A stretch of DNA of 35,717 nucleotides from Pleurocapsales cyanobacterium LEGE 06147 (GTDB lineage: Bacteria; Cyanobacteriota; Cyanobacteriia; Cyanobacteriales; Xenococcaceae): positions 1-35,717 of the forward strand of contig JADEWQ010000055.1 of NCBI GenBank assembly GCA_015207585.1. The letters run 5' to 3'. The position numbers were made by a program, and so were the translations under genes. Below, piece by piece: positions 14,331 through 30,082 of this stretch. The notes below the pieces were generated by a model. The model did no database searches. It was given only the letters and a program-made list of their open reading frames with translations, and was not told the origin of the DNA. Numbering within the stretch: position 1 is the first letter of the stretch; the number at the start of each line of letters is the position of its first letter.

Positions 14331-14581
14331 AGCTATAGGACTAAGGGTGATTTTTTGATTTATTTTGGTATTTTAGATATTTTTAACTATTTTGTTCGGT
14401 ATTTTCTTCATCATATTCGTATTTTTACGGTAAAGAAGATGTAAAGACGTCAAGAAGTAAAAAAGCAAGAATATATCATGGGATACAAAAACCAAGTCTC
14501 TAAATATGCATACTTTTTCTAAAATAAGATATTGATTTAACAAGTACATCAAAGAGTAAAAAGCTGTTATTCGAAAAAGTT
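14331..14581. promoter_or_regulatory. Divergent intergenic region, copolymerase / sirohydrochlorin chelatase
   Basis: A 251-bp AT-rich spacer between divergently transcribed genes that must hold both promoters. No strong inverted repeat, RNA gene or operator is apparent. The plus-strand frame of the chelatase is open back to 14528 but offers no ATG. Confidence 0.3.
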
Positions 14582-15388
14582 TTGACCTCGTATTCTGCCT
14601 ACTTACTGGTATCTCATGGAAGCCGCGACAGTCGAGCTCGACTAGCTTTGTGGCAATTAACTCAGCTAGTACGCTGGCAATTAAAAACTAATGTCATCCT
14701 AACTCAGGGAAATTATATAGAACAACAATTACATAATTTGCCAAATAAAAAAACCGTAACCACCGTCAACCAAGAGCGATGCCCGCTAGTTAGTAGTGCC
14801 TGTCTTGAATTAACTACTGTACCTTTACACGAGCAGATTACTCAATTTGCTCGACAAGCAAATCGAGCTAACTGCCAACAAATTCAAATATTCCCGTTGT
14901 TTTTATTACCAGGAGCTCATGTACGAGAGGATATTCCGGCTGAAGTCGCTAAAGCTCAACAAGTTTTAGGAGCAACAGTAAACCTTCAATTGCGCCCATA
15001 TTTGGGCAGTCGCGTTGGCATGTTGGAATTATTGAGAGAGCAGTTTGCACAAATGCCAAGTGATGGGCGTATCCTTCTTGCTCATGGTAGTCGCATACCA
15101 GGCAGTAATCAAATTAGCGAAGTCCTAGCGGCACAGTTAAAGGCAATACCAGCTTATTGGTCGGTATTTCCCAGTTTGGCAGAACAGATAGAGACTTTAT
15201 TGGGTGCGGGCAAACACAAGATAGCAATTCTACCTTATTTTCTCTTTTCTGGCAAAATTACAGAAGCGATCGCTACTCGAGTGCAACAATTACAACAAAC
15301 CTTTTCTACAGTTGAATTGATTCTCGGTCATCCTTTAGGTCCAACCAAAGAATTAGCTAAGCTCGTCCTTGAGGAAGTAGCACAATGA
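14582..15388 (+). CDS. Sirohydrochlorin chelatase, CbiX/SirB type, long form
   Basis: Inserts Fe2+ (siroheme) or Co2+ (cobalamin) into sirohydrochlorin. The 268-residue protein has two tandem CbiX-like halves. The first has both metal-site His residues: His12 in LLVSHGSRD and His113 in FLLPGAHVRED. The second half keeps the first (LLAHGSR) but has FLFSGKITEAI in place of the second, so it appears catalytically degenerate. No ATG is available near the conserved start; a TTG at 14582 gives MTSYSAYLLVSHG, fitting the family. The stop overlaps the start of cobA (ATGA at 15385), so the two genes, which act on successive steps from uroporphyrinogen III, are translationally coupled. Confidence 0.88.
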   Translation: MTSYSAYLLVSHGSRDSRARLALWQLTQLVRWQLKTNVILTQGNYIEQQLHNLPNKKTVTTVNQERCPLVSSACLELTTVPLHEQITQFARQANRANCQQIQIFPLFLLPGAHVREDIPAEVAKAQQVLGATVNLQLRPYLGSRVGMLELLREQFAQMPSDGRILLAHGSRIPGSNQISEVLAAQLKAIPAYWSVFPSLAEQIETLLGAGKHKIAILPYFLFSGKITEAIATRVQQLQQTFSTVELILGHPLGPTKELAKLVLEEVAQ

Positions 15389-16155
15389 ATCAACAACAAC
15401 AGTGTAGAGGAAAAGTTTATTTAGTAGGTGCAGGTCCGGGAGACCCAGGCTTGATGACTCTCAAGGGCAAAAGTTTATTAGAACACGCTGATGTCGTAGT
15501 TTATGATGCTTTGGTTAGTCCGGCTATTTTAGGGATGATTAATGCGAAAGCAGAAAAGATCGATGCCGGTAAGCGGCGAGGTCGTCACTCCAAGCTGCAA
15601 GCAGAAACTACCAAGCTACTGATTGAAAAGGCACGGACTAATGCAGTAGTGGTCAGGCTCAAAGGCGGCGATCCCTTCGTATTTGGACGAGGTGGAGAAG
15701 AAATGAGCGATTTGATTGGGGCAGGAGTTCCAGTAGAAGTCGTACCCGGGATCACCTCTGGCATTGCCGCACCTGCCTATGCAGGTATTCCTATAACTCA
15801 CCGTGATTATACTTCCTCTGTCACTTTCGTTACCGGACACGAAGCAGCAGGCAAATATCGTCCAGAAGTCAATTGGCAGGCACTTGCTCGGGGATCGGAA
15901 ACAATAGTTATCTACATGGGGGTTCACAATTTGTCTAGAATTATCCCGCAACTGATAGCAGGGGGTCTACCAGCAAAAACTCCCATAGCTTTGATCCGTT
16001 GGGGAACTCGTCGAGAACAAGAAGAATTAATCGGTACTCTCGCAACGATTGTCGAGCGAATAGAGGAAACTAATTTTGAGGCACCAGCGATCGCTGTAAT
16101 TGGGAATGTAGTTAGTCTCCATTCTTGCTTATCTGCTAGTCGTCCTTCAGTTTGA
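15385..16155 (+). CDS. cobA: Uroporphyrinogen-III C-methyltransferase
   Basis: Methylates uroporphyrinogen III at C2 and C7 with two SAM molecules to give precorrin-2, the entry to siroheme and cobalamin. The 256-residue protein has the tetrapyrrole methylase blocks VGAGPGDPGLMTLKG, VRLKGGDPFVFGRGGEE, PGITSGIAAPAYAGIPITHRD and a late ALIRWGTRREQ. There is no fused uroporphyrinogen-III synthase or precorrin-2 dehydrogenase domain. It overlaps the chelatase gene by 4 bp. Siroheme is needed by nitrite and sulfite reductases. Confidence 0.95.
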   Translation: MNQQQQCRGKVYLVGAGPGDPGLMTLKGKSLLEHADVVVYDALVSPAILGMINAKAEKIDAGKRRGRHSKLQAETTKLLIEKARTNAVVVRLKGGDPFVFGRGGEEMSDLIGAGVPVEVVPGITSGIAAPAYAGIPITHRDYTSSVTFVTGHEAAGKYRPEVNWQALARGSETIVIYMGVHNLSRIIPQLIAGGLPAKTPIALIRWGTRREQEELIGTLATIVERIEETNFEAPAIAVIGNVVSLHSCLSASRPSV

Positions 16156-16258
16156 AGGGGAAAAACTAACCATTTTGCGGCAATGGTGTCGGTTGAATGG
16201 CATGATATTTTATGGTAAGCAGTCGATCTTTCCTCTTTGACAGATACAAATCATAACT

Positions 16259-16480
16259 ATGGGTTTTGCCGATCTCTCAATCGCGGAAATAGCAGCAGAA
16301 TACCGTCTTACCCCAGAGCAAGTGTTTCAACTTTGCGATAGGCTCAAAATTGCCTATAAAGACCGAAATACTTGCTTGCCGTTAGAAGATGCTAAGGCTG
16401 TTATTTCTCTAATTTTGTCCGATCGATCCGATTGGGAAGGAGAGAAAACGGAGAATTCGTCCTCGCGCTCTCCTGCTTGA
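16259..16480 (+). CDS. Small helical protein with IF2-N/HTH-like fold, function unknown
   Basis: A 73-residue protein, mostly helical, with a helix-turn-helix-like pattern at residues 7-35 (SIAEIAAEYRLTPEQVFQLC) and a disordered acidic/serine tail. The pattern recalls the IF-2 N-terminal small domain and other nucleic-acid-binding helices. It sits between cobA and psbV on the same strand with no visible terminator, so cotranscription with either neighbour is possible. Function is not assignable. Confidence 0.6.
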   Translation: MGFADLSIAEIAAEYRLTPEQVFQLCDRLKIAYKDRNTCLPLEDAKAVISLILSDRSDWEGEKTENSSSRSPA

Positions 16481-16636
16481 TAGAATCGCTCTGGATCGGT
16501 TCAATTATTGCTGTAAACTAACGGATTGTGATTGTCTGTCAATCTACTGTTTGCTTTTAATACTGATTAAGTGGAGATTAATTTAGTGGTGCATACCGTA
16601 TGCCCCATAGATAAGCAAAAATCGTCGAGGAGAACA

Positions 16637-17125
16637 ATGTTGAAGCGATTAATATTTGCTGTAGCGACTATATTTTTCATTTTTCAATTTAACATTTGCA
16701 GTGCGGCTGCCGTAGAGCTTACGGAAGATATCCGTACGGTTAAATTAAACGAACAAGGAGACGAGATTGTTCTCAATCTTAAAGAAGTTCAACAAGGTCA
16801 ACGTTTGTTTAATGACACTTGTAGCTCTTGTCATAAAGCGGGTACAACCAAAACCAATCCCAATGTTGGACTAGGACTTGAGGCTTTAGCTAATGCCGAA
16901 CCACCTAGAGATAATATTGAAGGGTTGGTTGATTATCTAAAACATCCTACCACCTATGATGGAGAAGCAAGTATCCTGGAATTACATCCCAATACTACTC
17001 GTTCGGATCTTTATCCCATGATGCGCAATCTCACCGACGAAGACCTCAAAGAAATCGCCGGTCACATTCTGATTCAGCCCAAAATTCGTGGAGTTATGTG
17101 GGGAGGCGGCAAAGTATACAATTAG
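16637..17125 (+). CDS. psbV: Cytochrome c550 of photosystem II (PsbV) precursor
   Basis: An extrinsic lumenal subunit that stabilises the Mn4CaO5 cluster of photosystem II. The 162-residue precursor has a signal peptide (MLKRLIFAV and a hydrophobic run, cleaved after CSAAA at residue 25), giving a mature protein of 137 residues, the usual size. Haem attachment is C62-S-S-C65-H66; His103 in LKHPTTYDG is at the place of the second axial ligand of this bis-His cytochrome. The frame is open further upstream (to 16571), but I use the ATG at 16637 because of the signal peptide and the AGGAG at 16628-16632. A strong terminator follows. Confidence 0.96.
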   Translation: MLKRLIFAVATIFFIFQFNICSAAAVELTEDIRTVKLNEQGDEIVLNLKEVQQGQRLFNDTCSSCHKAGTTKTNPNVGLGLEALANAEPPRDNIEGLVDYLKHPTTYDGEASILELHPNTTRSDLYPMMRNLTDEDLKEIAGHILIQPKIRGVMWGGGKVYN

Positions 17126-17168
17126 ACTTTTCTCGTTCCCATTTTGGCTAACAAAACAACAATAAGTC

Positions 17169-17216
17169 GGGAATTTAGTCTTGTGCGGACTGAATTCCCT
17201 CTTATTTTAGTTTTTC
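17169..17216 (+). terminator. Strong intrinsic terminator after psbV
   Basis: A 12-bp stem (17169-17180 paired with 17188-17199, one T-G wobble) around the 7-base loop TTGTGCG, followed by TCTTATTTTAGTTTTT. It lies between the convergent psbV and copolymerase genes. The T-tract favours termination of psbV. Confidence 0.85.
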
Positions 17217-17233
17217 GACATCGATGTAAAAAC

Positions 17234-19399
17234 TTAGGTAACTGAAGACTGCAGTTGATTATCGTCTTCTCTACTAAGGGTTCTGTGAGCATAGGAATCT
17301 GGCAAATTGATGGCTTCGGAGCCATTAATAACTGCTCCCAACAATGGGATCTCTGTTTCCGTAAACTGGTCGATTGTTTCTCCCAGCATACTCGCACGGG
17401 AAATTCCTGGTCTAGTTACCAAGATAATGCCATCTGTAATAGACTCGAGTAACAGTGCATCATTACATTTCGATAGAGAAGGAGAATCGATGACGACCAC
17501 ATCAAAGCGACCGCGAGCATCTTCAATGAGTCGGCGTAATTCGTTTGACTCAATGATGGCAGCTACTTGACGCAAAGGTCCGAGACTGGGAACTAAGTAC
17601 AAATTGGTAATTCCCGGAACCAAACGGATGGTCTCGCCGCGATCGCCATAATAGTTGAGAGGGTCATCGTTATACTTTGGCAAGGGTTCGAGCCGTACAG
17701 TATCTGCCAGGGAAGGAGAACGCAAGTCAGCTTCAAGAAGAAGAGTACGCTTACCAGCATTGGCAGAGGCGATCGCCAAATTATAGGCAGTTAAGCTTTT
17801 ACCCTCTTCCTGACTTACGCTCGTAATTAAAATTACTTTAGAAGACTGAGAACCGAAACGACGTAGATTGCTACGCACCCGTTCGTAAAAAGTCAAATAA
17901 AGAGAATCAACATCCATGAGAATGGAGGTTTCCTTACCCTCAAAATCGTAGCAACTAACATAGGGAATTTTCCCCAGTAGCGGTACTTCCCGTTCGCTTA
18001 ATAAATCCTGTATTTCTCTAGCTGTATAAAGTCGGTCATCTAAAGTCGCCAGTAAAAAGATAATACCTGCTGCTGCTATCAATCCGAGCCCTCCACCAGC
18101 CGCTAGAATCAGCAAACGGTTAGTTGAAGCAAAGGTAGAGGGGAGCAGTTCTTGATATTGAGGAGCTTGAGCTATGGCTAAGCTGCTAGTAGTTTCTGCT
18201 TCAGCTGATTGAGCATCGACTAAAGCAGTAAGAATAGTTTGATAGAGAGCTTTTTGAGTCTCTACTTCTTGTCCCAAGCGAGTTTGCTGTAGTTGTTGGT
18301 TGGGAAATTGTTCGTATTGCTGCCGCAATTGTCTTTCCGTACGCTTGACAGATTCTAGTTGTCTTTGAACACCTTCTCGCTGAGTTTGTAGCGTAATTAA
18401 AGTATTGGCAAGCTGTTGTCGGGCAGGATCGAGACTGCTATCTTGCCTTAACTGACTGGGCAAAGGCTTTAACTTACCATCTCCACCAAGCACTTCTGCA
18501 GCTCGTTCTCGAAACAGTTGTTCATTAGCTTGTTGCCGTTTGCGTAGGTCAACCATCGTGGGATGTTCTGGACGTAAATCTTTTTCTATCAATTTAATTT
18601 GTGCTTCATTTTGTAGTATTTGCCCTCGTAGATTCGCCAAAATTGGATCGGCACTGAGAGCGGCTGCAGTATAAGCTTCTTTTGGATTTAAACCCAACTG
18701 GTCGATCAAACTAGCGATTTGACCATCAATTTCTTCAAGCATTAGCTGTAGCTGTCTTTGCTGTTGCTGACTGCCAGTAAGACCGTTGAATAAACTGCCA
18801 TCTTGAACGGCTAGTAGAGGTGCACCTTCGGTAGTAATGAACTGATAATATGCTTCTTCGGCTGTTGCTAGTTCTTGTTGTACCTCGATCGATCGCTCTT
18901 TGAGAGCTTGAATTCTATTTCTTAGTTGAGAGGTGTTGAGCAAACGACTTTGCTCGATCGCTTCTTTCATAAAAATCCCTAGAAATCTTACACCTTCTTC
19001 AGCAGTAGCAGAGTTGTTGTATTCTAAGGTAATTAACTGGTTATTTTCCTTTTGCTCGGGAATATCAATTGTCAGTTTTTTCTCGACTATTTCTTGTAGT
19101 TGTTGCCCGCTCAGTTGTAGTTGCTCTCTAACCTTTTCTAATACAAGTGGACTTTGAATAATATTAATCCCAACTTCTCGTCCTTGTTGTTGTAGTTGCT
19201 CTCCCGTACTGGTGAATAAAGGTGGAGGGTTGCTATAAGATAGCTGTCCAGTAGCTTTATAGGTTGCAGATGGTTTTGGCGGTGAGGGTTGTAGTGCGAT
19301 AATTCCCGATACGCCCAGACAGAATAAAAAGATGAAAACTCCAAGTAATTGATGTTGTTGGCAAGCAATTAAAAAGCGTTTAACAATTGATGGTGTCAT
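17234..19399 (-). CDS. Polysaccharide copolymerase with P-loop domain, no tyrosine tail
   Basis: A 721-residue Wzz/Wzc-type inner-membrane protein, last in the minus-strand exosortase/export run. First membrane helix at about residues 18-36, a long periplasmic Gln-rich coiled-coil region (about 110-410), second helix at about 428-450, then a cytoplasmic P-loop domain with Walker A SVSQEEGKSLTAYN (Lys534), Walker A' LLLEADLRSPS and Walker B VVVIDSPSL. The C-terminus (AHRTLSREDDNQLQSSVT) has no tyrosine cluster, so tyrosine-kinase cycling is unlikely; an ATP-dependent regulatory role remains possible. It follows the Wza-like gene by 97 bp. Exosortase loci commonly encode a copolymerase/ATPase of this kind. 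Confidence 0.87.
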   Translation of the reverse strand: MTPSIVKRFLIACQQHQLLGVFIFLFCLGVSGIIALQPSPPKPSATYKATGQLSYSNPPPLFTSTGEQLQQQGREVGINIIQSPLVLEKVREQLQLSGQQLQEIVEKKLTIDIPEQKENNQLITLEYNNSATAEEGVRFLGIFMKEAIEQSRLLNTSQLRNRIQALKERSIEVQQELATAEEAYYQFITTEGAPLLAVQDGSLFNGLTGSQQQQRQLQLMLEEIDGQIASLIDQLGLNPKEAYTAAALSADPILANLRGQILQNEAQIKLIEKDLRPEHPTMVDLRKRQQANEQLFRERAAEVLGGDGKLKPLPSQLRQDSSLDPARQQLANTLITLQTQREGVQRQLESVKRTERQLRQQYEQFPNQQLQQTRLGQEVETQKALYQTILTALVDAQSAEAETTSSLAIAQAPQYQELLPSTFASTNRLLILAAGGGLGLIAAAGIIFLLATLDDRLYTAREIQDLLSEREVPLLGKIPYVSCYDFEGKETSILMDVDSLYLTFYERVRSNLRRFGSQSSKVILITSVSQEEGKSLTAYNLAIASANAGKRTLLLEADLRSPSLADTVRLEPLPKYNDDPLNYYGDRGETIRLVPGITNLYLVPSLGPLRQVAAIIESNELRRLIEDARGRFDVVVIDSPSLSKCNDALLLESITDGIILVTRPGISRASMLGETIDQFTETEIPLLGAVINGSEAINLPDSYAHRTLSREDDNQLQSSVT

Positions 19400-19496
19400 A
19401 ATTATCCAGCCAAACTCAAAAATGATATTAGTAATGAGTTAATGGTGAAAAGCAACATAAAATTAGACTGAGTATGTGAAGGGTAAAGGATACTTC

Positions 19497-20726
19497 TCAG
19501 TTATTAAAAATAAAATCAAAGAAAGCACGGAAGCCTAAGATATCGCGGATCGGTCGAGTAATAACATTAAAGAAATTGAAGGCTTTGCCAATCAAAGTAC
19601 GACTCACAATAATGACATCTTCATCTTGAAGGGGAATATTTTGGGCAATATCGCCGTTGAGTGCTTTTTTTGTATTGAGTTGTTGAGTAATTACCTTTCC
19701 GCGTTCGGGGTCGAATCGCATCAGAGCTATTTCCTCTACTCTGATTAACAAACCATCTCCTGCAGGAAGAGAAGCGATCGCATCGAGAAAAGTGCTGCCG
19801 TTAGGCAAGTTCAGATTGCGTAGGGCTGTTCCTCCTTGAGGGGTAGGGGCTACTAAGCGGATGACAATTGTTTGCTGTGGCAGAGTCGTACGAGCTACTA
19901 ACGCTCGGTCGTAATCTCGGTCTTGACCTACTTCTAGTTTTGGTACGATAATCGTATCTCCTCCTTGCAAGCGTACGTCGGGTAATGCTTTGCCACTAAT
20001 CAGTGGCGTGTATAGATCTACTTCTTCTTCAATGACGTTACCGTCAGCTAGAGAACGACGTAACATTACCGAGCGCAAATCTGCTCTCTGGGTACTTCCT
20101 CCTGCTGCTTGGAGAGCAACGGTCAACGGAGAACCAGAAACGAAGGCATAGAAACCCGGTTTAACTACTTCTCCCAAGAGGGTTATCTGAGCCGGACGAG
20201 GAGCAGTTAAAGTTATAAATACTTCTGGTCTATTTTGGAGAAAACGAGTACTTAGTTCGTAACTGATTTTTTGTTCTGCTTCTGCTAAAGTTAGACCTGT
20301 CAGAGATATCCGACCGATAATGGGCAAAATGGCATTACCTTCCCCGTCAATGGTAGCTGCGGTACTAAACTCGGCAAATTGAGGTACGTTAATATTCAGA
20401 CCGTCTCCCGTATCGAGACGATAAAGATTAAACTGTGCCGCATTAGTCCTGTCCAAAGAGGGCAAGGGGTGGTTAACAGAAGAAAGATTTTCTGGATTAG
20501 AGGATGAGGCAGAGGATTGAGTAGATAATCTTTTTTGAACGGGGGATTTTTCAGTTTTTGGCACAGAAAGAGAAGTTTGACCGAGACTGACAGGAGCAAA
20601 TACTCCCGATTCAATTGTCCACAATAACACTGCACCGCAGGACAAAGAAAATAACCACTTCTGTTTTCTTCGGTTCAAAGAACCAGAAGCGATCGCATGA
20701 GGTTGAGGTTGAGTCACTGTATGCAT
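19497..20726 (-). CDS. Polysaccharide export protein (Wza-like, SLBB domains)
   Basis: A 409-residue export protein. A hydrophobic segment at about 24-44 acts as signal sequence (Cys30 is not in a convincing lipobox). The polysaccharide export domain starts at about residue 100 (YRLDTGDGLNINVPQFAEF), followed by SLBB-type beta-grasp repeats (ITLLGEVVKPGFYAF, and a later IPLQDEDVIIVSRT). The protein forms the outer-membrane or periplasmic part of the capsule/EPS export channel, working with the copolymerase. The N-terminal 100 residues are Ser/Pro-rich and probably disordered. It lies 49 bp downstream of the exosortase-associated gene on the same strand. Confidence 0.88.
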   Translation of the reverse strand: MHTVTQPQPHAIASGSLNRRKQKWLFSLSCGAVLLWTIESGVFAPVSLGQTSLSVPKTEKSPVQKRLSTQSSASSSNPENLSSVNHPLPSLDRTNAAQFNLYRLDTGDGLNINVPQFAEFSTAATIDGEGNAILPIIGRISLTGLTLAEAEQKISYELSTRFLQNRPEVFITLTAPRPAQITLLGEVVKPGFYAFVSGSPLTVALQAAGGSTQRADLRSVMLRRSLADGNVIEEEVDLYTPLISGKALPDVRLQGGDTIIVPKLEVGQDRDYDRALVARTTLPQQTIVIRLVAPTPQGGTALRNLNLPNGSTFLDAIASLPAGDGLLIRVEEIALMRFDPERGKVITQQLNTKKALNGDIAQNIPLQDEDVIIVSRTLIGKAFNFFNVITRPIRDILGFRAFFDFIFNN

Positions 20727-20775
20727 GATTAGCTAGAAACTAACAAAAATTCAAGCACTCATGAGGAGCAAACTT

Positions 20776-21477
20776 CTAGGAAATATTACTAAAAGTACTT
20801 GCTTGCAAATGAGCTTGTACTGTTATGGCAAGGGATTCAGCTACAGATTCAGCTGCACTCAGCTTCCCTAAAGGTTCGATAGGAATTTTGAGACAGACAG
20901 CAACCCAAGCAACTCGACGACGATGTAATTGGGCTAGTCGATCTTGCCAAAACCACTGTGCTGGAGAATAGTGACCTCCATGGGGAAAAGCGTACCATTG
21001 GACTACTGCAAATGTCTGCTGGCGATTCCACGCACGAAAGAAACGAGCCGTGACTCCTAAGCTTTGACCGTCTTGTTGTACGGTAAAATGTAATTTACGA
21101 TAAGAATCTGTTTTCCATCGCTCCAGTCCATTAATATCCATCCAATCGACTTCTGGTTTATCGAGATAATAATTTTGTGGTCGCAACAACAGCATGACAG
21201 GCTTTTGCTGGGGTTTTTGCATAACCTGAACCGACCACTGACGACCCCCAATACGTACTTCTTGTTGTTGGAGTGTTTGCCAATCTGGAAGTTCTAATCC
21301 AGATTGCCGTAGACTTCTAATTTGATTGATATTAGAAACTTGAGGAACGTCCAACCAAGACCGCTTTCCTTCTTGCCAATATCCAGGAATAGTTTCTACT
21401 AATATTAGAATAATTAACCCTAATATAAGGGCGATATGGACTAGCGACCACCTTTGTTGAAAGCGAGATAGATTCAT
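20776..21477 (-). CDS. Cyanoexosortase-associated protein
   Basis: A 233-residue protein with one N-terminal membrane helix (about 13-30) and an extracytoplasmic domain rich in Trp and Gln (for example RPQNYYLDKPEVDW and VVQWYAFPHGGHYSPAQWFW). Position directly after the exosortase gene and this layout match the exosortase system-associated proteins of cyanobacteria, which take the place of EpsI in other bacteria. Its biochemical role is not established. It probably acts with the exosortase at the plasma membrane. The 54-bp spacing to the exosortase gene and same orientation support one operon. Confidence 0.8.
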   Translation of the reverse strand: MNLSRFQQRWSLVHIALILGLIILILVETIPGYWQEGKRSWLDVPQVSNINQIRSLRQSGLELPDWQTLQQQEVRIGGRQWSVQVMQKPQQKPVMLLLRPQNYYLDKPEVDWMDINGLERWKTDSYRKLHFTVQQDGQSLGVTARFFRAWNRQQTFAVVQWYAFPHGGHYSPAQWFWQDRLAQLHRRRVAWVAVCLKIPIEPLGKLSAAESVAESLAITVQAHLQASTFSNIS

Positions 21478-21531
21478 AAATAAATTTTTATTTAACTTAA
21501 AAATATTCAGAGAAAATAAATATTCATTACC

Positions 21532-22398
21532 TTAAGTTTGTTCGTTAAACTTTTCAATAATCTTCAATAATAAAACAATAATTCCTAACATCATAACCGA
21601 ATAAAGATCGCCTCCCCAACCATCGTGTAACCACGTAAATAATTCGTCTTTTTCTGTGCCATGAAACCAGGCAAGTATGGTATTCCGAATAATATTAGCA
21701 GTGATACTGATGAGAGTAGAACCAATTAACAAAAGAGTTGTTCGACGGCGATCGCTTAAATTGCCCGTCCAATAAAGCAAAATTAACCCTACATATAAGC
21801 TAGTAAATAACATTTTTAATCCCGCACAATAGGGAGCGACCTCGACTAATCTTCCTCCTACCGATAAGTAAATTTGCTCGACAGTAACATCCAGACCAAA
21901 TTGCATCAGAATAAAGCCTGCACTGACAGCGATAAATTTTTGCAAGGGTAAGGTTAAAGGAGTTATTAAATAGGGAAGAGAATTGGGTGTTGCTAATAAG
22001 ACCAGTAGTAAGGGGAAACCTTGTAATTTAAATCCAGGTATTCCTTTGAGCCATAAACATATTCCAGCTAGGATCGCCGGAAAGGATAAATTAACTAATT
22101 CAGAAACTCCAGTTGTATACAAAAATCCACCAATACCTAATAAAAAAACTCCGATTGGATGAATCCGATCTGCTAATTTATGCCACTTTTTTCGTTGAAG
22201 CCAACAGATGTAAACAGCAAAGGGTAAACCAATGATTCCGTGACTAAAATATTCGTGTTCGATACTAATACTTTTATTTAACCAGCCATCATACCAATGA
22301 ACGATCGGAGGACCATAAAGAATAGTTAATAAAACAATAATTATGTAATCAAAAAAATAGCCCTTTAGAGATAAAGAAAATTTATTACTAATTTGCAT
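21532..22398 (-). CDS. crtB: Cyanoexosortase (exosortase B type), membrane transpeptidase
   Basis: A 288-residue polytopic membrane protein of the exosortase/archaeosortase family, which cleaves PEP-CTERM-type sorting signals and is thought to pass the protein on to a surface attachment. The triad is visible: Cys191 in VEVAPYCAGLK, Arg238 in TANIIRNTILA and His258 in WLHDGWGGD. About eight hydrophobic segments are present. The gene name crtB used for cyanoexosortase B is shared with phytoene synthase and should not be confused with it; the B-type call rests on the neighbouring associated protein and is less certain than the family. No obvious PEP-CTERM substrate gene is in the window. It is the second gene of the run starting with the aminotransferase. 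Confidence 0.88.
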   Translation of the reverse strand: MQISNKFSLSLKGYFFDYIIIVLLTILYGPPIVHWYDGWLNKSISIEHEYFSHGIIGLPFAVYICWLQRKKWHKLADRIHPIGVFLLGIGGFLYTTGVSELVNLSFPAILAGICLWLKGIPGFKLQGFPLLLVLLATPNSLPYLITPLTLPLQKFIAVSAGFILMQFGLDVTVEQIYLSVGGRLVEVAPYCAGLKMLFTSLYVGLILLYWTGNLSDRRRTTLLLIGSTLISITANIIRNTILAWFHGTEKDELFTWLHDGWGGDLYSVMMLGIIVLLLKIIEKFNEQT

Positions 22399-22414: not shown

Positions 22415-23593
22415 TTACTCGCTCGTTAAGGTATCAGAGCAAGCTACTGTCAGATTAGCGGCGACTAAAGACAACTGTTGGCTTACCCATTCAATTTGCT
22501 CTTTGGTTATACCCGGATACATGGGTAAAGATAAGATTTGCTGAGAGAGTTTTTCTGCACGAGGAAAATCTCCCTTTTGGTACCCCAAATATCGATAACC
22601 AGGTTGTAAATGACAGGGGATAGGATAATGAATACTAGTTTGAATTCCTCGCTCGGCAAGTTGTTGTTGGATTTTTTCTCGCTTATTGGCTAATAATTTA
22701 CTCAATTGAATGACGTAGAGGTGGTAAACGTGACCCGTACCGCTTCGGTTTTCAATGGGAAGGGTGTCTTGTAATTCCAGCGATTGAAGATAGCGATCGT
22801 AATGGTAGGCTGCTTGATTACGTTCTAGATTCCAGCCAGATAAATAAGGTAATTTGATGTTGAGAATGGCTGCTTGTAAAGTATCTAAGCGGCTATTTGT
22901 TCCTCGTTCGGTATGAAAATATTTGTGTGTTGCACCGTAGTTACGTAAACTGCGTACTCTTCGGGCAACGGTTTCATCGTTGGTGACAACTATACCACCG
23001 CTACCAAAAGCACCGAGGTTTTTACTGGGATAGAAACTAAAACCAGCCGCTAGCCCTACCGAACCAGCAAAATAGCCATCTCGTCGAGCTAAATGAGCTT
23101 GAGCCGCATCTTCAAAAATTAGTAGCTTATAGATAGCGGCAAAATCCAACAACTTTTGGGGTGCGACCATTTGTCCGTAGAGATGAACCGGTACGATCGC
23201 TTTAGTTTTTGGTGTAATTGCTTTGGCTGCTGCTTCGAGATCGATCAGGGCAGTATTTTGTTCGCAGTCAACTAATACTGGAGTTGCTCCTGCTTGGATC
23301 GCACCGATAACAGTAGCAATAAATGTATTAGCTGGAATAAGTACTTCATCTCCCGCACCGATACCGCAGGCTTGTAAACCCAGGGCGATCGCATCTGTAC
23401 CAGAGGCAACTCCAACCCCATAGCTAACTCCACAAGCACGAGCAAAAGAGGCTTCAAATTGGGCTAATGCTTCACCTAAAATAAAGTCTCCTCGTTGAAT
23501 TACCTCGCTAATAGCTCGGTTTATCTCTATCTGAATGGGCAGATGTTGCCAGTTAAGGTCAACAAAAGGAACTTTTACCGAGATTGGAGTCAT
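22415..23593 (-). CDS. DegT/DnrJ/EryC1/StrS sugar aminotransferase
   Basis: A 392-residue PLP enzyme of the sugar nucleotide aminotransferase family. The PLP Schiff-base Lys191 lies in FSFYPSKNLGAFG, the PLP-ring Asp in IFEDAAQAHLA, and the phosphate-binding GTDA in VASGTDAIALG. Family members transfer an amino group from Glu or Gln to keto-sugar nucleotides used in polysaccharides or glycans. The product sugar cannot be determined. It is first in the minus-strand run with exosortase, export protein and copolymerase, 16 bp from the exosortase gene, suggesting that the amino sugar goes into the exported polymer or protein-linked glycan. Confidence 0.9.
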   Translation of the reverse strand: MTPISVKVPFVDLNWQHLPIQIEINRAISEVIQRGDFILGEALAQFEASFARACGVSYGVGVASGTDAIALGLQACGIGAGDEVLIPANTFIATVIGAIQAGATPVLVDCEQNTALIDLEAAAKAITPKTKAIVPVHLYGQMVAPQKLLDFAAIYKLLIFEDAAQAHLARRDGYFAGSVGLAAGFSFYPSKNLGAFGSGGIVVTNDETVARRVRSLRNYGATHKYFHTERGTNSRLDTLQAAILNIKLPYLSGWNLERNQAAYHYDRYLQSLELQDTLPIENRSGTGHVYHLYVIQLSKLLANKREKIQQQLAERGIQTSIHYPIPCHLQPGYRYLGYQKGDFPRAEKLSQQILSLPMYPGITKEQIEWVSQQLSLVAANLTVACSDTLTSE

Positions 23594-23769: not shown

Positions 23770-26616
23770 TTACTGCTCACTGGTCACTTGATTCATAATT
23801 CCTGCTGCTATCTGAATAACTTGTACGAGATCGGCTAAATTTCTTTGGTCAGCAGGGACTAGACAGGGAAAAACAGAAAGACCGTCTACTTGATTTGCTG
23901 CTTCTGTAGTTTTGGCATCTAAAGTTACTAGAGGCAAAGCTGCCAAAGACTTGCATTTTCTAAGGGAATACAAATATTGAAGCGGTTGTGAGAGTAAACT
24001 GCCATCTAGTAATATTACATCTAACTGCCAAATTCGTGCCAGAATTTCTCCTTGTTCTAAACTATCAGCTTCAATTACTCGATGATGAAGACGGTATAAG
24101 CGATCGTTAAGTCCAAAATCGCCGTTGGAATTGTCCGTCATTGTTGGGTTATTAGGAATCCCGCTTTGCGGGTGCTGCCGCACCGCATCTGCACCTGGAT
24201 AAAGGCGGAGAATCATTAGACTTTTTTTCTCAGACAAAGACTGTTCTTTTATAGGAGATAATACCCGAGCTAATACTTGCTTATCTATTGGCAAACTAAG
24301 TAAGCCATTAATTTGCCCAGTTTTTTGTTCTTGGTTTTGTTTATCTTCAGCAGTAAGCCATACGGGAATGTTTGCAGTACGAGGATCTGATTTTAATAGA
24401 GTTAAAATATCATCTCCCGACAGCAGAGAAAAGGAAGAATTGAGCAAAATTTTGCTTGGCTTTAATTGACGAGCCTTATACAAAGCTTCTATACCAGTAC
24501 GAGCAATTATGGGATGATAACCCAATTCTTCTAACTGGCTAGCCAAATCATTAATACGGTGGGAAACTGCCTCAACCACTAATACCAAAGAATTACTTTG
24601 GCGATCGCAGATCCTCTTATTGTTGTTTAATACAACTCGAGCTTCAGACTGCAAATTCTGACTGGAATTCTCCGCACAAAAAGGGAGTAGCAAAGTAAAC
24701 TCACTACCTCTATCCACTCTAGAAATAAAGGAAATATCTCCTCCGTGCGCTCTAGCTAATTGTTGAGCTAAAACTAACCCCAATCCCTTATCCCATTCAA
24801 CAGGAGAAGTTTCTGACCGAAAAAATTGCTCTAAAACTAGAGGTTGGGATACTTCTGAACTACTTCTACCAGTATCCCAAACAATGATGGCGATCCATTT
24901 CGTCCACAGAGTAACAGAAATTCCAACTTCTCCTTCTGGCGGAATCAACTTGAGTGCATTGTCTAAAAGATGAATCAAAATCTGACACAGACGCAGTTTA
25001 TCGGCTAAAATCGTCTCCAAACCAGGCTCAATATTAAGCTTAAATTTATGTTTGGAGCAGAAAACATCGCGAGCTCGATCTGCTGCTGCCTGTCTGGCGA
25101 TAACTTGCTGGTATACTTCTTCACAAATAGTTTTAATCTTGACTGGTTCTAGGTTCAGTTTGAGCTTACCCGTAACCAAACGACTCCAATCGAGTAAATC
25201 GTTAACTATATTCATCAATTGTCGTCCACTACGGTAAATTAGCTCGGCGTAGCGAAATTGACGTTGGTTGAGAGTTCCTAATTTTTGCTCTTTGAGAAGA
25301 CTTGAGAGACCGACAATGGCAGTGAGGGGCGATTTTAGTTCGTGACTGATGCTGGCTAAATATTCGTCTTTTAAACGATTCAACTCGCTCAATTCGGCAT
25401 CTTTTGCTGCTGCTTCTTGACGGGGCGTACAAGCCGAGGGGTCGTGGACTGTTCCCGCAGGGTCCGTATCGTATTCCGCGACCGCCTCCTCCCCTTGTGC
25501 CCTCGAAGAGGCGCGGAGCGCACCCCGTTCGCCCTTGAAGGACAAGGTCAGCCCCTCACTAAATTGTCGAGTTTGGCAATTTGGTATTGCTAATACTAGC
25601 CAACATTTTTGTGAATAGTTTGTCGGAAAACACTGATAATTAGTCCAATCAATGGGAAGTTTAATGTATTGCCAAATTTTAGAGCTAACTTTAACTGGTA
25701 CTGCTAGAGAAGTAAAAGACTTTGGAGAAGAATTTTGGTTTTCTTCATCAATCCGAAAGCGATCGCCACTTAATTCTGAAGTAAGGCTAGATAAGCTCCC
25801 TAGAGACTGAGCCGTTATAGGTGGTTGCCATAAAGAGGGAAGGGTTGAAGCCCAACCATAGTTGCCTTTAAGACAGTAAGGGTAGAGTTCTGGTTTTGGT
25901 TGCCAATTATCCTCAGTCAAGAGTGATGGCTGCTGTTGTGGGAGAGAAACTGCAGTTTTTTCTGGCTGGTTTGACTCTTTAATGTTACTTACTTGCTCTC
26001 GCCAACAACGATTCTGATACAAAATTTGTCCTTCAGTAGCTTGTAACGTAACGGGTAGAGGAGTTTGTTCCAATAGCTCGAAGAACCAATGACTGTAAGC
26101 TTGGTTTTTTGAAATTGTTGTATCGGTATTTTGCCAGTTCCATAACAGCGTTTCTATCAAACAGTGAACATCTAAAAGTCCCAGCAATTTTCCTTTGTCA
26201 TCAACTAGAATATAATGTTGAGAACTTTCTTTCGTCTTTACTTGTCCCTCAAAACAGGATAGAAATTCTTGTATCCCCATCTGGGATGATAAGCTAACAA
26301 TAGGCTCTTTTAGGGAGGTTAAGTCCAAGCTTTGGGTGAAAATACCCGAGCGATCCCGCTTTGCGGGTGCTGCCGCACCGCCAACTCTATCCGATCCAAC
26401 AGAAGGGGTAAAGCGGTTGAGCAAATGTTCGGCTATCAGTGGCAGTAAACGACGATAGTCAAGCACTCCTATAGGTTGCTGCTTTCGATCGACTACAATC
26501 ATAGTTGTATGCTGACTTGAGCGAACGAGTGCTAGCACCGTTTCTAGAGTTACTTCCTGTTGACAGGTAGGAACGCGACGAACAAACTCTTTCAAAGTAA
26601 TATGAGAACTAGACAT
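23770..26616 (-). CDS. CBS-PAS histidine kinase with two degenerate receivers, divergent from kaiA
   Basis: A 948-residue soluble sensor kinase. Order: two CBS-like repeats (about residues 5-65 and 105-165); a PAS-like segment (about 170-215); a poorly conserved middle; DHp with His425 in SISHELKSPL; HATPase with N-box HLLDNALK, G1 DTG and G2 GLGLVLAQQ (to about 655); receiver-like domain 1 (about 674-785) and receiver-like domain 2 (about 795-945). In domain 1 the phospho-acceptor Asp is Asn726 (ILLNSS), the acidic pair is EA, and the conserved Lys is Leu, so it is a pseudo-receiver. Domain 2 keeps Asp871 (ILLDGS) but lacks the acidic pair and Lys. The gene is divergent from kaiA with a 266-bp shared spacer, and its layout recalls the clock input kinase CikA, although the sensor part differs. 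It carries in-frame GC-rich repeat elements at three places. Confidence 0.8.
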   Translation of the reverse strand: MSSSHITLKEFVRRVPTCQQEVTLETVLALVRSSQHTTMIVVDRKQQPIGVLDYRRLLPLIAEHLLNRFTPSVGSDRVGGAAAPAKRDRSGIFTQSLDLTSLKEPIVSLSSQMGIQEFLSCFEGQVKTKESSQHYILVDDKGKLLGLLDVHCLIETLLWNWQNTDTTISKNQAYSHWFFELLEQTPLPVTLQATEGQILYQNRCWREQVSNIKESNQPEKTAVSLPQQQPSLLTEDNWQPKPELYPYCLKGNYGWASTLPSLWQPPITAQSLGSLSSLTSELSGDRFRIDEENQNSSPKSFTSLAVPVKVSSKIWQYIKLPIDWTNYQCFPTNYSQKCWLVLAIPNCQTRQFSEGLTLSFKGERGALRASSRAQGEEAVAEYDTDPAGTVHDPSACTPRQEAAAKDAELSELNRLKDEYLASISHELKSPLTAIVGLSSLLKEQKLGTLNQRQFRYAELIYRSGRQLMNIVNDLLDWSRLVTGKLKLNLEPVKIKTICEEVYQQVIARQAAADRARDVFCSKHKFKLNIEPGLETILADKLRLCQILIHLLDNALKLIPPEGEVGISVTLWTKWIAIIVWDTGRSSSEVSQPLVLEQFFRSETSPVEWDKGLGLVLAQQLARAHGGDISFISRVDRGSEFTLLLPFCAENSSQNLQSEARVVLNNNKRICDRQSNSLVLVVEAVSHRINDLASQLEELGYHPIIARTGIEALYKARQLKPSKILLNSSFSLLSGDDILTLLKSDPRTANIPVWLTAEDKQNQEQKTGQINGLLSLPIDKQVLARVLSPIKEQSLSEKKSLMILRLYPGADAVRQHPQSGIPNNPTMTDNSNGDFGLNDRLYRLHHRVIEADSLEQGEILARIWQLDVILLDGSLLSQPLQYLYSLRKCKSLAALPLVTLDAKTTEAANQVDGLSVFPCLVPADQRNLADLVQVIQIAAGIMNQVTSEQ
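24159..24187. repeat. GC-rich palindromic element, copy B (in kinase receiver-like domain 2)
   Basis: A 29-bp stretch made of two overlapping hairpins, CCCGC-TTT-GCGGG and GGTGC-TGCC-GCACC. It is identical over 29 bp to the copy at 26353 but translated in a different frame (as DAVRQHPQSGI). It falls just after beta strand 1 of the second receiver-like domain. Confidence 0.85.
25421..25545. repeat. Large GC-rich structured insert, copy D (before the phospho-accepting His)
   Basis: About 125 bp of GC-rich DNA in an AT-rich gene, with nested inverted repeats (GGTCG with CGACC; GGAC with GTCC). Bases 25450-25468 match 18 of 19 bases of the module in kaiA at 27242-27260. It encodes kinase residues about 358-399 (rich in Ala, Arg, Gly), ending some 25 residues before His425, in the place of the usual coiled-coil linker. 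Confidence 0.7.
26353..26381. repeat. GC-rich palindromic element, copy A (between the kinase CBS repeats)
   Basis: The same 29-bp double hairpin as at 24159, here read as GGAAAPAKRD in the linker between the two CBS-like repeats (residues about 80-89). The flanking GGAAAPA and RDR are the same as in the KaiA insert. Confidence 0.85.
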
Positions 26617-26882
26617 GAATTTTTATGTAATTCTCACTAAAAGTAGCTCGAAAATAATTCTGCTTATTTGACGATGATTTTTTAGTTAAATTAGCCGCTT
26701 TTGACTAGCATTAACTTTGCTCGAGTTAATCATCGGTAACAGTTTAATTATTACGCCAAATTCTCAATATTGAAACCCGATTACTCAATAATTAATTATG
26801 ATTTGCAAAAAAGGTCAATAAATGTTAATTTTTTCTTAATTTTTTATAGGAGGATAAACAAAAGTATTTAATTCTCTACTAA
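26617..26882. promoter_or_regulatory. Divergent promoter region, histidine kinase / kaiA
   Basis: A 266-bp very AT-rich spacer with start codons of the kinase and kaiA at its two ends. A GGAGG at 26849-26853 is 29 bases before the kaiA ATG, too far to be a standard ribosome binding site, and a TAA directly precedes the ATG. No operator can be defended by eye. Confidence 0.4.
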
Positions 26883-27971
26883 ATGTCAGACAATCAAAAA
26901 ATAAACGCTCTTTTAAATACTTCTTTGCTCAGTCGATTATTCATTTGTCTGTTTCTAACTGATGAAAAGCTAACTCAGTGGTTAACTCGTTTACTGAGAG
27001 AAGATCGCTATTGCTTAAATTACATTAGCATGGCAGGTAAATTTATCAATTATATTGAACATTATAAAGAACAAATAGATTGTCTTATTTGTCCGGATAA
27101 CTTAGCTGTACAGAGTTTGCTTTCCCAGTTGTACGAACGAGGAACTTTATTGCCCATCGTAATTATCGAACAAAATAAATCTTCAGATATTGTGTCACAA
27201 ACGTCGACAGCAAATCGACAAGGTGGTGCTGCCGCACCCGCTGTTCCCGAAGGGTCCGTACTGCCCGAAGACGCTCCGCGTAGAAAAGCGTCGGGCGCGC
27301 GGGATCGCCTTTCAAATTTTCAGGAAAAAACCCAAGTAATTTCTACTTTTTACCATAGTGCAGAAGTAAGACTTCCTGAGGTGAATTTAGAGCAGATAAC
27401 TACCTACATCAATTTAGCTATTACTAAATTTCTGAATCTTGCTCCTAGTTGTGCTCTCCAAGACAAACCTACAAAACCCAAAATCGAGCGACAGGAAAAT
27501 AGTCAAAATTTTTTAATTCTTCAACAAAGGAGATTAGCAGAAAAGTTAAAAGAAAGACTGGGTTATTTAGGAGTTTATTACAAACGCAATTTTCAAGATT
27601 TTTATCGTAATTTATCTCCTGAAAAAAAACAAGAATTTATTCAAAAATTAAGTGCAGATTATCGTCAAATTATTCTTAATTATTTTTCTCAAGAACAAGA
27701 TATTAATCAAGCGATCGATCGATTTGTTAATCAAGCTTTTTTTGCCGATTTATCCGTATCTCAAATCTTAGAAATACATATGGACTTAATGGATGAATTT
27801 GCTCAACAATTAAAATTAGAGGGAAGAAGTGAAGAAATTTTATTAGATTATCGTTTGGCTTTAATTGATATTATTGCTCATTTAGGTGAGATGTATCGTC
27901 GTTCAATTCCGCGAGAAGACATTCCTTTTGAACTGTTGTTTCAAGACGATCGAGGTAGACATTCACGATAA
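26883..27971 (+). CDS. kaiA: Circadian clock protein KaiA, with an insertion in the pseudo-receiver
   Basis: KaiA binds the C-terminal tail of KaiC and stimulates its autophosphorylation. The 362-residue protein has an N-terminal pseudo-receiver (about 15-170) lacking the phospho-acceptor and a C-terminal four-helix dimerisation/KaiC-binding domain (about 215-350) with highly conserved blocks ERLGYLGVYYKR, AFFADLSVSQILEIHM and GRSEEILLDYRLALIDIIAH. Synechococcus KaiA is 284 residues. The extra length comes partly from a 29-codon GC-rich insert (residues 114-142) and flanking sequence between VIIEQ and YHSAE in the pseudo-receiver. Position corresponds to the loop GDRDSEDPDEPAK of the Synechococcus protein. 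The start is fixed by a TAA immediately upstream and by homology. It precedes kaiB by 116 bp. Confidence 0.95.
   Translation: MSDNQKINALLNTSLLSRLFICLFLTDEKLTQWLTRLLREDRYCLNYISMAGKFINYIEHYKEQIDCLICPDNLAVQSLLSQLYERGTLLPIVIIEQNKSSDIVSQTSTANRQGGAAAPAVPEGSVLPEDAPRRKASGARDRLSNFQEKTQVISTFYHSAEVRLPEVNLEQITTYINLAITKFLNLAPSCALQDKPTKPKIERQENSQNFLILQQRRLAEKLKERLGYLGVYYKRNFQDFYRNLSPEKKQEFIQKLSADYRQIILNYFSQEQDINQAIDRFVNQAFFADLSVSQILEIHMDLMDEFAQQLKLEGRSEEILLDYRLALIDIIAHLGEMYRRSIPREDIPFELLFQDDRGRHSR
27222..27308. repeat. Composite GC-rich palindromic element, copy C (inside kaiA)
   Basis: Exactly 87 bp (29 codons). The left end has hairpin GGTGC-TGCC-GCACC overlapping CCCGC; the right end is GCGGGATCGC. Between them, where copies A and B have only AAA, lies a 57-bp module (27242-27298) with an inner stem GACGC/GCGTC flanked by GCCC and GGGC. 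The outer ends encode GGAAAPA and RDR, as copy A does. Confidence 0.85.
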
Positions 27972-28087: not shown

Positions 28088-28402
28088 ATGACTAAATTTA
28101 GAAAAACTTATGTTTTGAAATTATATGTTGCTGGCAATACACCCAACTCCGTCAGAGCTTTAAAAACTTTAAAAAATATACTAGAAAAGGATTTTCAAGG
28201 AGTATATGCTCTAAAAGTCATTGATGTTCTGAAAAATCCGCAATTAGCTGAAGAAGATAAAATTTTGGCAACCCCTACCCTATCAAAAGTCTTACCCCCA
28301 CCAGTACGTAAAATTATCGGCGATCTTTCAGATCGAGAAAAAGTTTTGATTGGTTTAGATCTTCTTTATGAAGAAATTAAAGAACGAGAGGGAGAAATCT
28401 AG
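28088..28402 (+). CDS. kaiB: Circadian clock protein KaiB
   Basis: KaiB binds the CI ring of KaiC at night, sequesters KaiA and recruits CikA/displaces SasA; it does so after switching from its tetrameric ground state to a thioredoxin-like fold. The 104-residue protein shows the diagnostic blocks [58 protein letters not shown] and a Glu-rich C-terminus. There is no kinase domain, so it is KaiB and not SasA. It lies 116 bp after kaiA and 117 bp before kaiC, on the same strand. Confidence 0.98.
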
Positions 28403-28519: not shown

Positions 28520-30082
28520 ATGAACCAACCCAATCCCAATAGTCAACAACAACAAGAACTATCTACTAAGGGAATTCAGAAAATCCGGACGATGATTGAA
28601 GGATTTGATGAAATCACTCATGGTGGCTTACCAGAAGGTAGAACTACTTTGGTTAGCGGTACATCTGGTACGGGAAAAACTTTATTAGCAATTCAATTTC
28701 TTTACCACGGCATCAAATATTTTGATTATCCCGGTTTATTTGTTACTTTTGAAGAATCTCCTAGAGATATAATCCAAAATGCTTACAGCTTTGGTTGGGA
28801 TTTACAAAGTTTAATTGAACGGGGCAAATTGTTTATCCTCGATGCTTCTCCCGATCCTGACGGACAAGAAGTAGTAGGTAATTTCGATCTTTCTGCTTTA
28901 ATTGAGCGAATTCAGTACGCCATCCGCAAGTATAAAGCTAAGTTAGTCTCCATCGACTCGGTTACTGCAGTATTTCAACAGTACGACGCGGCTTCAGTTG
29001 TTAGAAGAGAAATTTTCCGTCTCGTCGCTCGACTAAAACAACTACAAGTGACTTCTATTATGACTACAGAGCGAGTAGAAGAATACGGGGCGATCGCTCG
29101 CTTTGGAGTAGAAGAATTTGTTTCTGATAATGTAGTTATCGTGCGTAATGTTTTAGAAGGAGAACGTCGTCGTCGCACGGTCGAAATTCTTAAATTGCGC
29201 GGCACAACCCATATGAAAGGAGAATACCCCTTTACGATTACCAACGATGGGATCAATATTTTTCCTCTTGGTGCGATGCGACTTACCCAACGTTCTTCCA
29301 ATGTCCGCATTTCCTCCGGAATCGAAACCCTCGATCGCATGTGTGGTGGTGGTTTCTTCAAAGATTCGATTATTTTAGCAACGGGGGCAACGGGTACGGG
29401 TAAAACTTTACTGGTGAGTAAATTTCTCGAAGAAGGTTGCCGTAGGGGTGAAAGAGCAATTTTGTTTGCCTACGAAGAGTCGAGAGCACAATTATCTCGT
29501 AATGCTTATTCTTGGGGAATTAACTTTGAGGAGATGGAGAAAAAAGGTTTGCTCAAGTTATTTTGTAACTATCCAGAATCAGCAGGATTAGAAGACCACC
29601 TGCAAATGATTAAAACCGAAATTTCTCTGTTTAAACCTTCACGTATTGCCATCGATTCGCTATCTGCTTTAGCTAGAGGCGTTACTAACAATGCCTTCCG
29701 CCAATTTGTCATTGGCGTGACTGGTTACGCCAAGCAGGAAGAAATTACTGGTTTCTTTACCAATACTACCGACCAGTTTATGGGTACTCATTCAATTACC
29801 GAGTCCCACATTTCAACAATTACCGATTCTATTTTGTTACTGCAATACGTAGAAATACGCGGCGAAATGTCTCGTGCTATCAACGTTTTTAAAATGCGCG
29901 GTTCTTGGCACGATAAAGGTATTCGCGAGTATGTCATTAGCGAGGCCGGGGCAGAAATTAAAGATTCCTTCCGTAACTACGAACGGATTATTAGTGGCTC
30001 GCCAACGCGAATTAGTGTAGACGAGAAAAGCGAACTTTCTCGCATCGTGCGGGGAGTAAAAGATAAATCAATGCAAGAATAA
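28520..30082 (+). CDS. kaiC: Circadian clock ATPase/kinase KaiC
   Basis: The core oscillator protein, a double-domain RecA-like hexamer with ATPase, autokinase and autophosphatase activity. The 520-residue protein is one longer than the Synechococcus protein. CI has Walker A GTSGTGKT (Lys53) and catalytic EE in FVTFEESPRD; CII has Walker A GATGTGKT and catalytic EE in FAYEESRAQ. Phosphorylation sites Ser432 and Thr433 lie in SHISTITDS (431/432 in Synechococcus). The C-terminal tail bound by KaiA (SGSPTRISVDEKSELSRI) is intact. All key residues are present, so a working oscillator is expected. No strong Shine-Dalgarno sequence precedes the ATG. Confidence 0.98.
   Translation: MNQPNPNSQQQQELSTKGIQKIRTMIEGFDEITHGGLPEGRTTLVSGTSGTGKTLLAIQFLYHGIKYFDYPGLFVTFEESPRDIIQNAYSFGWDLQSLIERGKLFILDASPDPDGQEVVGNFDLSALIERIQYAIRKYKAKLVSIDSVTAVFQQYDAASVVRREIFRLVARLKQLQVTSIMTTERVEEYGAIARFGVEEFVSDNVVIVRNVLEGERRRRTVEILKLRGTTHMKGEYPFTITNDGINIFPLGAMRLTQRSSNVRISSGIETLDRMCGGGFFKDSIILATGATGTGKTLLVSKFLEEGCRRGERAILFAYEESRAQLSRNAYSWGINFEEMEKKGLLKLFCNYPESAGLEDHLQMIKTEISLFKPSRIAIDSLSALARGVTNNAFRQFVIGVTGYAKQEEITGFFTNTTDQFMGTHSITESHISTITDSILLLQYVEIRGEMSRAINVFKMRGSWHDKGIREYVISEAGAEIKDSFRNYERIISGSPTRISVDEKSELSRIVRGVKDKSMQE

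Follow-up and report, generated by a model that had tools for sequence, protein, structure and literature searches.

A hybrid histidine kinase with two pseudo-receivers, encoded divergently from kaiA, as a candidate clock component in cyanobacteria

The 35,717-nucleotide stretch of Pleurocapsales cyanobacterium LEGE 06147 examined in this study (hereafter the window) carries the clock genes kaiA (26883-27971, plus strand), kaiB (28088-28402, plus strand; above the NCBIfam circ_KaiB cut-off), and kaiC (28520-30082, plus strand; NCBIfam circ_KaiC, 1008 bits), and beside them an open reading frame (ORF) of 948 amino acids (aa) for a hybrid histidine kinase (23770-26616, minus strand). The kinase and kaiA are divergent, as a preliminary description made from the DNA letters alone had already noted; they stand start to start and share an intergenic region of 266 bp (26617-26882). 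The kinase belongs to a cyanobacterial family that keeps its place beside kaiA and its domain order, has lost receiver chemistry in two C-terminal domains, and has, at part of its loci, a promoter element of its own.

The domain order is CBS-CBS-PAS-like-HisKA-HATPase-RR1-RR2, where RR1 and RR2 are receiver-like domains; a third receiver-like C-terminal domain, RR3, is present in roughly half of the members (22/46; 929-1230 aa), including those at loci L050, L051, L054-L060, L079, L082, and L084-L091. The 46 ORFs were selected for having a kinase core and RR2, and their loci, like the 40 kinase-kaiA gaps discussed below, were chosen by hand rather than drawn at random: best matches first, then spread over families. 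The transmitter of the window kinase consists of HisKA (25177-25371, minus strand; Pfam residues 416-480, expectation value (E) 1.4e-16) with the phospho-acceptor His425, and HATPase_c (24679-25002, minus strand; Pfam residues 539-646, E 1.6e-17, and residue alignment). The acceptor histidine is present in 46/46 members and the ATP-box residues are retained in 36-38 of the 46.

In the sensor part, CBS repeat 1 (aa 8-62; 26431-26595, minus strand) has a Pfam CBS match at 13-61 (E 3.4e-6), and a CBS match is found in 18/21 family members. The second repeat (aa 97-160; 26137-26328, minus strand) has no Pfam match in the window kinase; in a comparison of family profiles, however, repeats 1 and 2 align with a probability of 95.7 (E 8.8e-9), and solved CBS proteins are matched by the family N-terminal profile, in one case over positions 13-157. 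The start of a PAS-like domain (aa 170-225; 25942-26109, minus strand), followed by a variable stretch, is suggested by the conserved family pattern LLEQLPLPLMLQTxxGxxLxxNxxWR and a low-confidence model: the structure model of the N-terminal part is poor, with a predicted local distance difference test score (pLDDT) of 36.6, and only its order of strands and helices was used. No GAF match was obtained with Pfam in the window kinase up to E 1. The preliminary description, which had proposed two CBS-like repeats and a PAS-like segment instead of GAF, is borne out by the Pfam and profile matches of the CBS pair and by the missing GAF match.

Neither receiver-like domain is readily recognised by Pfam: RR1 (aa 678-785; 24262-24585, minus strand) matches Response_reg at 678-782 with E 0.02 only, below the cut-off, and was placed by alignment, and RR2 (aa 799-942; 23791-24222, minus strand) has no Pfam match and was delimited by a family profile, a structure model, and alignment. 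In RR1 of the window, the acidic pair is E682-A683, the acceptor place is N726, T755 is present, and L775 replaces the lysine. These changes are family-wide: the acceptor place is Asn in 39/41 members and the first acidic place is Glu in 38/41, while the lysine column holds Lys in 0/41 and Leu in 28/41, with one member having a Lys one place earlier. RR2 has no acidic pair, the places after its first strand not being acidic, and its acceptor place (D871 in the window) is Asp in 31, Asn in 8, Glu in 6, and Thr in 1 of the 46 members. Both domains of the family are pseudo-receivers (PsR), the kind of domain that also ends CikA. The substitutions that the preliminary description had read in the first domain, and the Asp871 that it named as the only residue kept in the second, thus hold in the window, and those of the first domain extend across the family. 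Conserved stretches of RR2 lie in beta2-alpha2, in beta4, and in “VFPCL” of beta5. Since members were selected partly for RR2, its retention was judged from genome-wide profile searches: of the 150 genomes matched strongly by the N-terminal profile, 149 are matched strongly by the RR2 profile as well. RR1 is lost more often than RR2, being missing in 4/46 ORFs. Among seven members of the window's family, mean identity is 66.9% in HisKA, 61.6% in RR2, 43.3% in HATPase, and 40.5% in RR1.

The profile of RR1 is closer to one ordinary CheY-like protein (E 2e-19, probability 99) than to the CikA PsR profile, built from four sequences (E 6e-11, probability 97), and RR1 is, by this measure, derived from an ordinary receiver. 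For RR2, the model has a mean pLDDT of 67.9, with blocks of 70-91 over residues 51-150, and the receiver order of strands and helices. A Foldseek search with this model gave no PDB match at E of 0.001 or below; the first match was a uroporphyrinogen III synthase (0.018), followed by KdpE receivers. With VIA-align, receivers reached Z scores up to 7.6 (3.2 Å over 97 residues), where values below 8 are weak and an unrelated CoA mutase chain scored 7.5; CikA and KaiA PsR chains were not among the best 50 matches listed, an absence that carries no weight. The structural matches of the modelled RR2 are weak and mostly to ordinary receivers. Descent of RR1 or RR2 as a specific relative of the CikA or KaiA PsR was considered and is not supported by profile comparison.

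The spread of the family was assessed with profiles of the N-terminal part (A1) and of RR2 (A2) searched against 195 genomes of the host order. The N-terminal profile matches 167 genomes, 150 of them with E <1e-10, and the RR2 profile matches 156, 151 of them with E <1e-10; strong matches to either profile are found in 152/195 genomes. A first search with a single sequence had given 124/195, the later profiles being more sensitive. KaiA is found in 188/195 genomes. Among the matches listed, 150 genomes from the order and phylum samples have both kinase and KaiA and could be placed, and in 139 of these the two genes diverge from each other no more than 4 kb apart; in the other 11 the two are on different contigs (9, some of which may be assembly breaks) or far apart on one contig (2). 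The 139 linked genomes include other orders of the class, and the linkage spans many families. Conservation of this neighbourhood with the kai genes had been proposed as a check on the preliminary description and is found. The kinase also stands beside kaiA at L084-L086, where KaiA has a short frame of 129-202 aa. On the distal side of the kinase the neighbour varies: 41 neighbours, each defined crudely as the longest ORF found within 1.5 kb, form 26 clusters of at most 10 members, so the linkage to kaiA is not a matter of general synteny.

The shared intergenic region provides a further feature. Word counts in the 40 kinase-kaiA gaps pointed out an 18-bp direct repeat, TTACAATTAATTACAATT, which is present with up to 3 mismatches in 21/40 gaps, always in one orientation (Markov shuffles: mean 0.05, maximum 1, 20 runs). 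It is found before kaiB in 0/38 loci, before kaiC in 1/37, and before kaiA in 0/15 loci lacking a clear kinase, a control set that includes L072, with a probable far-diverged relative, and L064 and L075, with receiver-only ORFs. The element was discovered and counted in the same 40 gaps; the independent tests are the unlinked genomes and a whole-genome search. Nine of the 11 unlinked genomes were checked, and the element is beside the kinase in G088, G129, and G105 (0, 0, and 3 mismatches), while the kaiA regions of all nine have nothing better than 4 mismatches; where found in unlinked genomes, the element goes with the kinase and not with kaiA. It was not found at the kinases of G126 and G190, two genomes without a KaiA match. 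In 24 genomes searched whole, many of them chosen because their gap has the element, the search gave 18 sites with no more than 1 mismatch, of which 15 precede the kinase gene (reversed control 3); 31 sites in 776 kb outside the gaps is an upper bound, as this count includes overlapping loci that hold the same gaps. The element resembles HLR1, the site of RpaB (a regulator with ties to light and to the output of the clock), in having two TTACA half-sites with a 10-bp period (excerpts of PMC11633204 and PMC6331805). It differs in that the (G/T) places before TTACA are mostly C or A and in its near-unique 18-bp form at the kinase gene: TTACA-N5-TTACA is found in 14/40 gaps, but the exact HLR1 consensus (G/T)TTACA(T/A)(T/A)NN(G/T)TTACA(T/A)(T/A) in 0/40.

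Among 15 kaiA loci fetched from genomes without a listed kinase match, 14 have no family member beside kaiA, L064 and L075 holding receiver-only ORFs; in the fifteenth, L072, a divergent ORF of 626 aa has weak traces of HisKA, RR1, and RR2 and is probably a far-diverged kinase relative. Genome G222 is, on sequence grounds, a close relative of the Synechococcus elongatus model strain and not that strain itself, because its KaiA aligns from end to end with solved S. elongatus KaiA, differing at a minority of positions, and the PsR of its CikA matches 2j48. It has no kinase beside kaiA and no kinase family match; its kaiA is accompanied by genes for ribosomal proteins, a CheY-like gene (Pfam), and a truB-like gene, the genes other than the CheY-like one being named from their translations. 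A reduced kinase version of 715 aa stands beside kaiA in G258, which is identified as Thermosynechococcus or very near to it because its KaiA is almost the same as 5jwr over the C-terminal half and because C630, I641, and L654, residues reviewed for the published PsR-KaiB complex (excerpt of PMC6378743), are present in its CikA. In G023 (L077), which lacks the kinase, a gene for a DegT-type aminotransferase is divergent from kaiA; in the window, an aminotransferase of similar look, judged from its ORF, is encoded just beyond the kinase (22415-23593). The G023 placement is perhaps a trace of kinase loss, or chance. Farther downstream of the window kinase, at 12063-22398, are genes resembling those for exopolysaccharide export (Wzc-like, polysaccharide export, exosortase-like), also named from ORF reading.

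Both divergent genes of the window have taken up repeat sequence. A GC-rich repeat of this genome is inserted twice in frame within the kinase: at 24158-24186, in the beta1-beta2 loop of RR2, and at 26353-26381, between the CBS repeats. A related, longer piece lies in frame inside the PsR domain of KaiA, at about 27218-27310 (about aa 112-145). The 17-mer core of the repeat has 63 exact copies in the genome, the reversed control has 0, and four other genomes searched have 0; of 20 copies examined, 11 are in stop-to-stop frames of more than 250 aa, some near frame ends, with several frames read.

The kinase shares several characteristics with known clock kinases, although its kinship is with neither. 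Like CikA, it is a cyanobacterial HisKA kinase that ends in a receiver without chemistry and is connected to the clock, here by gene position; CikA, however, has the order GAF-HK-PsR, where the kinase family has a CBS pair, a PAS-like segment, and two or three receiver-like domains. In a kinase-core tree, 45 family members stand on one side of a branch with a Shimodaira-Hasegawa-like approximate likelihood ratio (SH-aLRT) of 100, and the 22 rows outside comprise 5 CikA, one doubled under another label, and 17 others. The host also has a CikA of its own: the CikA of G222 (L104; PsR confirmed by 2j48) selects G000:C21:2120-4069 (minus strand) at E 2.9e-133, with the next match in this genome at 1.4e-61, and the selected gene, on another contig, encodes a kinase of 770 aa (frame 781 aa) with a receiver-like C-terminus. 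A C-terminal pair of pseudo-receivers beside kaiABC might suggest that the window kinase is itself the CikA of this organism, but the missing GAF, the separate clade, and the coexisting canonical CikA leave this almost no probability and rule out orthology. “CikA-like”, the term of the preliminary description, fails as a statement of kinship, RR1 too being closer to a CheY-like receiver, and holds at most by analogy. Of the combined finding named there as telling against the proposal, a canonical CikA elsewhere in the genome together with a want of conserved linkage to kaiA, the first part holds and the second does not. SasA, the KaiC-binding clock kinase, is likewise a clock-connected HisKA kinase, but the window kinase has no Pfam KaiB match that would indicate its KaiB-like (thioredoxin-like) N-terminal domain, and has C-terminal receivers. 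The best NCBIfam match of the kinase is to HrmK-type hybrid kinases (NF038297), at 195.2 bits against a cut-off of 725; this match covers the histidine kinase and RR1, and the sensory part differs. The family is distinct from both CikA and SasA.

Conserved linkage to kaiA and family-wide pseudo-receivers make plausible a clock-linked kinase that the papers searched do not describe, and gene position and anatomy together make this kinase a good candidate for a clock part. The reading preferred here, tentatively and at somewhat less than even confidence, is that of an orphan hybrid kinase of a cyanobacterial family, back to back with kaiA and linked to the clock, in which RR1 and RR2 dock or inhibit. 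The CBS/PAS part would sense cytosolic state, and the transmitter would alter how a separate response regulator is phosphorylated, RpaA or RpaB being the likeliest candidate. RR1 and RR2 would relay no phosphate and would instead restrain the transmitter and dock a partner, most likely a Kai complex, RR2 being the domain essential for docking. Some members of the window's own lineage are losing the ATP lid, so the protein may serve there less as a kinase than as a phosphatase or scaffold. A bolder version, which seems rather doubtful, makes it a third clock kinase, old in cyanobacteria but absent from a close relative of the S. elongatus model, whose RR2 (modelled without helix alpha1, and conserved at beta2-alpha2 and beta4-beta5) docks a Kai complex, which couples the metabolic state sensed by CBS/PAS to clock output, and whose own near-unique direct-repeat promoter element closes a feedback loop through an OmpR-type regulator.

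Several observations weigh against a clock-linked, docking kinase. In three of the 195 genomes the kinase is present but KaiA gives no match, and two of the three have KaiC (these three are what is left of 20 kinase genomes without KaiA among the matches listed), and G002 has neither a KaiA C-terminal domain nor an intact KaiC match. Conversely, KaiA occurs in 39 genomes that give no strong match to the kinase, so the kinase is dispensable for the clock. Profile comparison gives RR2 no special likeness to the CikA PsR (probability 22; RR2-KaiA PsR 3, KaiA-CikA PsR 2), and the RR2 model lacks helix alpha1, which in the CikA PsR belongs to the reported KaiB-binding surface (excerpt of PMC12632262); the stretch in its place is of low confidence, holds an insert in the window, and is poorly conserved across the family. 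Six of the nine unlinked kinases are without a good element (a 4-mismatch site in G109 and none in five, one of which, G080, ends at a contig end), and the copy in the window's own gap is degraded, with 5 mismatches. At L056, the G002 locus, an intact kinase stands beside a kaiA cut down to an ORF for the N-terminal domain, and only scraps of kaiC were found, perhaps a decaying clock with the kinase retained. At L164 and L165 (G126 and G190), the kinase and KaiC are present and no KaiA C-terminal domain matches genome-wide.

The three genomes without a KaiA match, together with the 11 of 150 placed genomes in which kinase and kaiA stand apart, lend some weight to a kinase whose work lies outside the clock and which is held next to kaiA only by the shared divergent promoter region, and a promoter element that accompanies the kinase and not kaiA would fit such a gene; the linkage, however, has persisted in many families despite changes of the distal neighbour, and the element resembles the site of a regulator of light and clock output, so that this alternative appears unlikely. 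Decay of the kinase in this genome to a pseudokinase or scaffold, with the histidine and RR2 kept and ATP use going, has less in its favor and is distinctly unlikely: the second glycine of the G1 box is replaced by Ser in the window (DTGRSS) and lost in 10/46 members, the N-box Asn is lost in 9/46, the ATP-box region is degraded in L044, L045, and L063 of the window's family, and the kinase carries internal stops in G182 and is split into two ORFs in G046, but the window retains N-box Asn553, the Asp and first Gly of G1, the G2 glycines, and a frame that is open despite the in-frame inserts. Adenylate sensing by the CBS pair as an input to the clock, proposed in the preliminary description, would draw on the presence of the pair and on its weak resemblance, by profile, to AMPK gamma (E 0.001). 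The aspartate of the GxxTxxD motif, the ribose contact, is present in 0/21 members at CBS1 and 0/21 at CBS2, and classical adenylate binding is therefore doubtful and an adenylate-sensing input very improbable. What was originally suggested as an undescribed, energy-responsive clock kinase thus keeps its plausibility as a clock-linked kinase not described in the papers searched and loses ground as an energy sensor.

A search of open-access papers gave no recognisable description of the kinase family, although one may exist in other papers or under other locus names. In Anabaena PCC 7120, all2883 is the gene expected to encode the kinase, given its position next to alr2884. The latter is kaiA (excerpt of PMC8064755), and all2883 is an entry in a table of predicted CRP sites (excerpt of PMC2633013). 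The excerpted parts of a study of kaiA1B1C1 synteny name no kinase (PMC11372060), and those of a Crocosphaera watsonii preprint report no CikA homologue and describe the sensor for that role as still to be found (PMC12265555). A diel study of Nostoc punctiforme sought CikA-like kinases by GAF and kinase domains (excerpt of PMC12691664), a search that would not select the kaiA-adjacent family.

The kinase is more widely conserved than the preliminary description could know. What is known of cyanobacterial clock input and output comes largely from S. elongatus. The reduced kinase of the Thermosynechococcus-like G258 makes an in vitro test with well-studied Kai proteins possible. If the kinase is a clock part, then the standard wiring misses a component that is carried by 152/195 genomes of the order and that is beside kaiA in most placed cases, yet is without a match in a close relative of S. 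elongatus.

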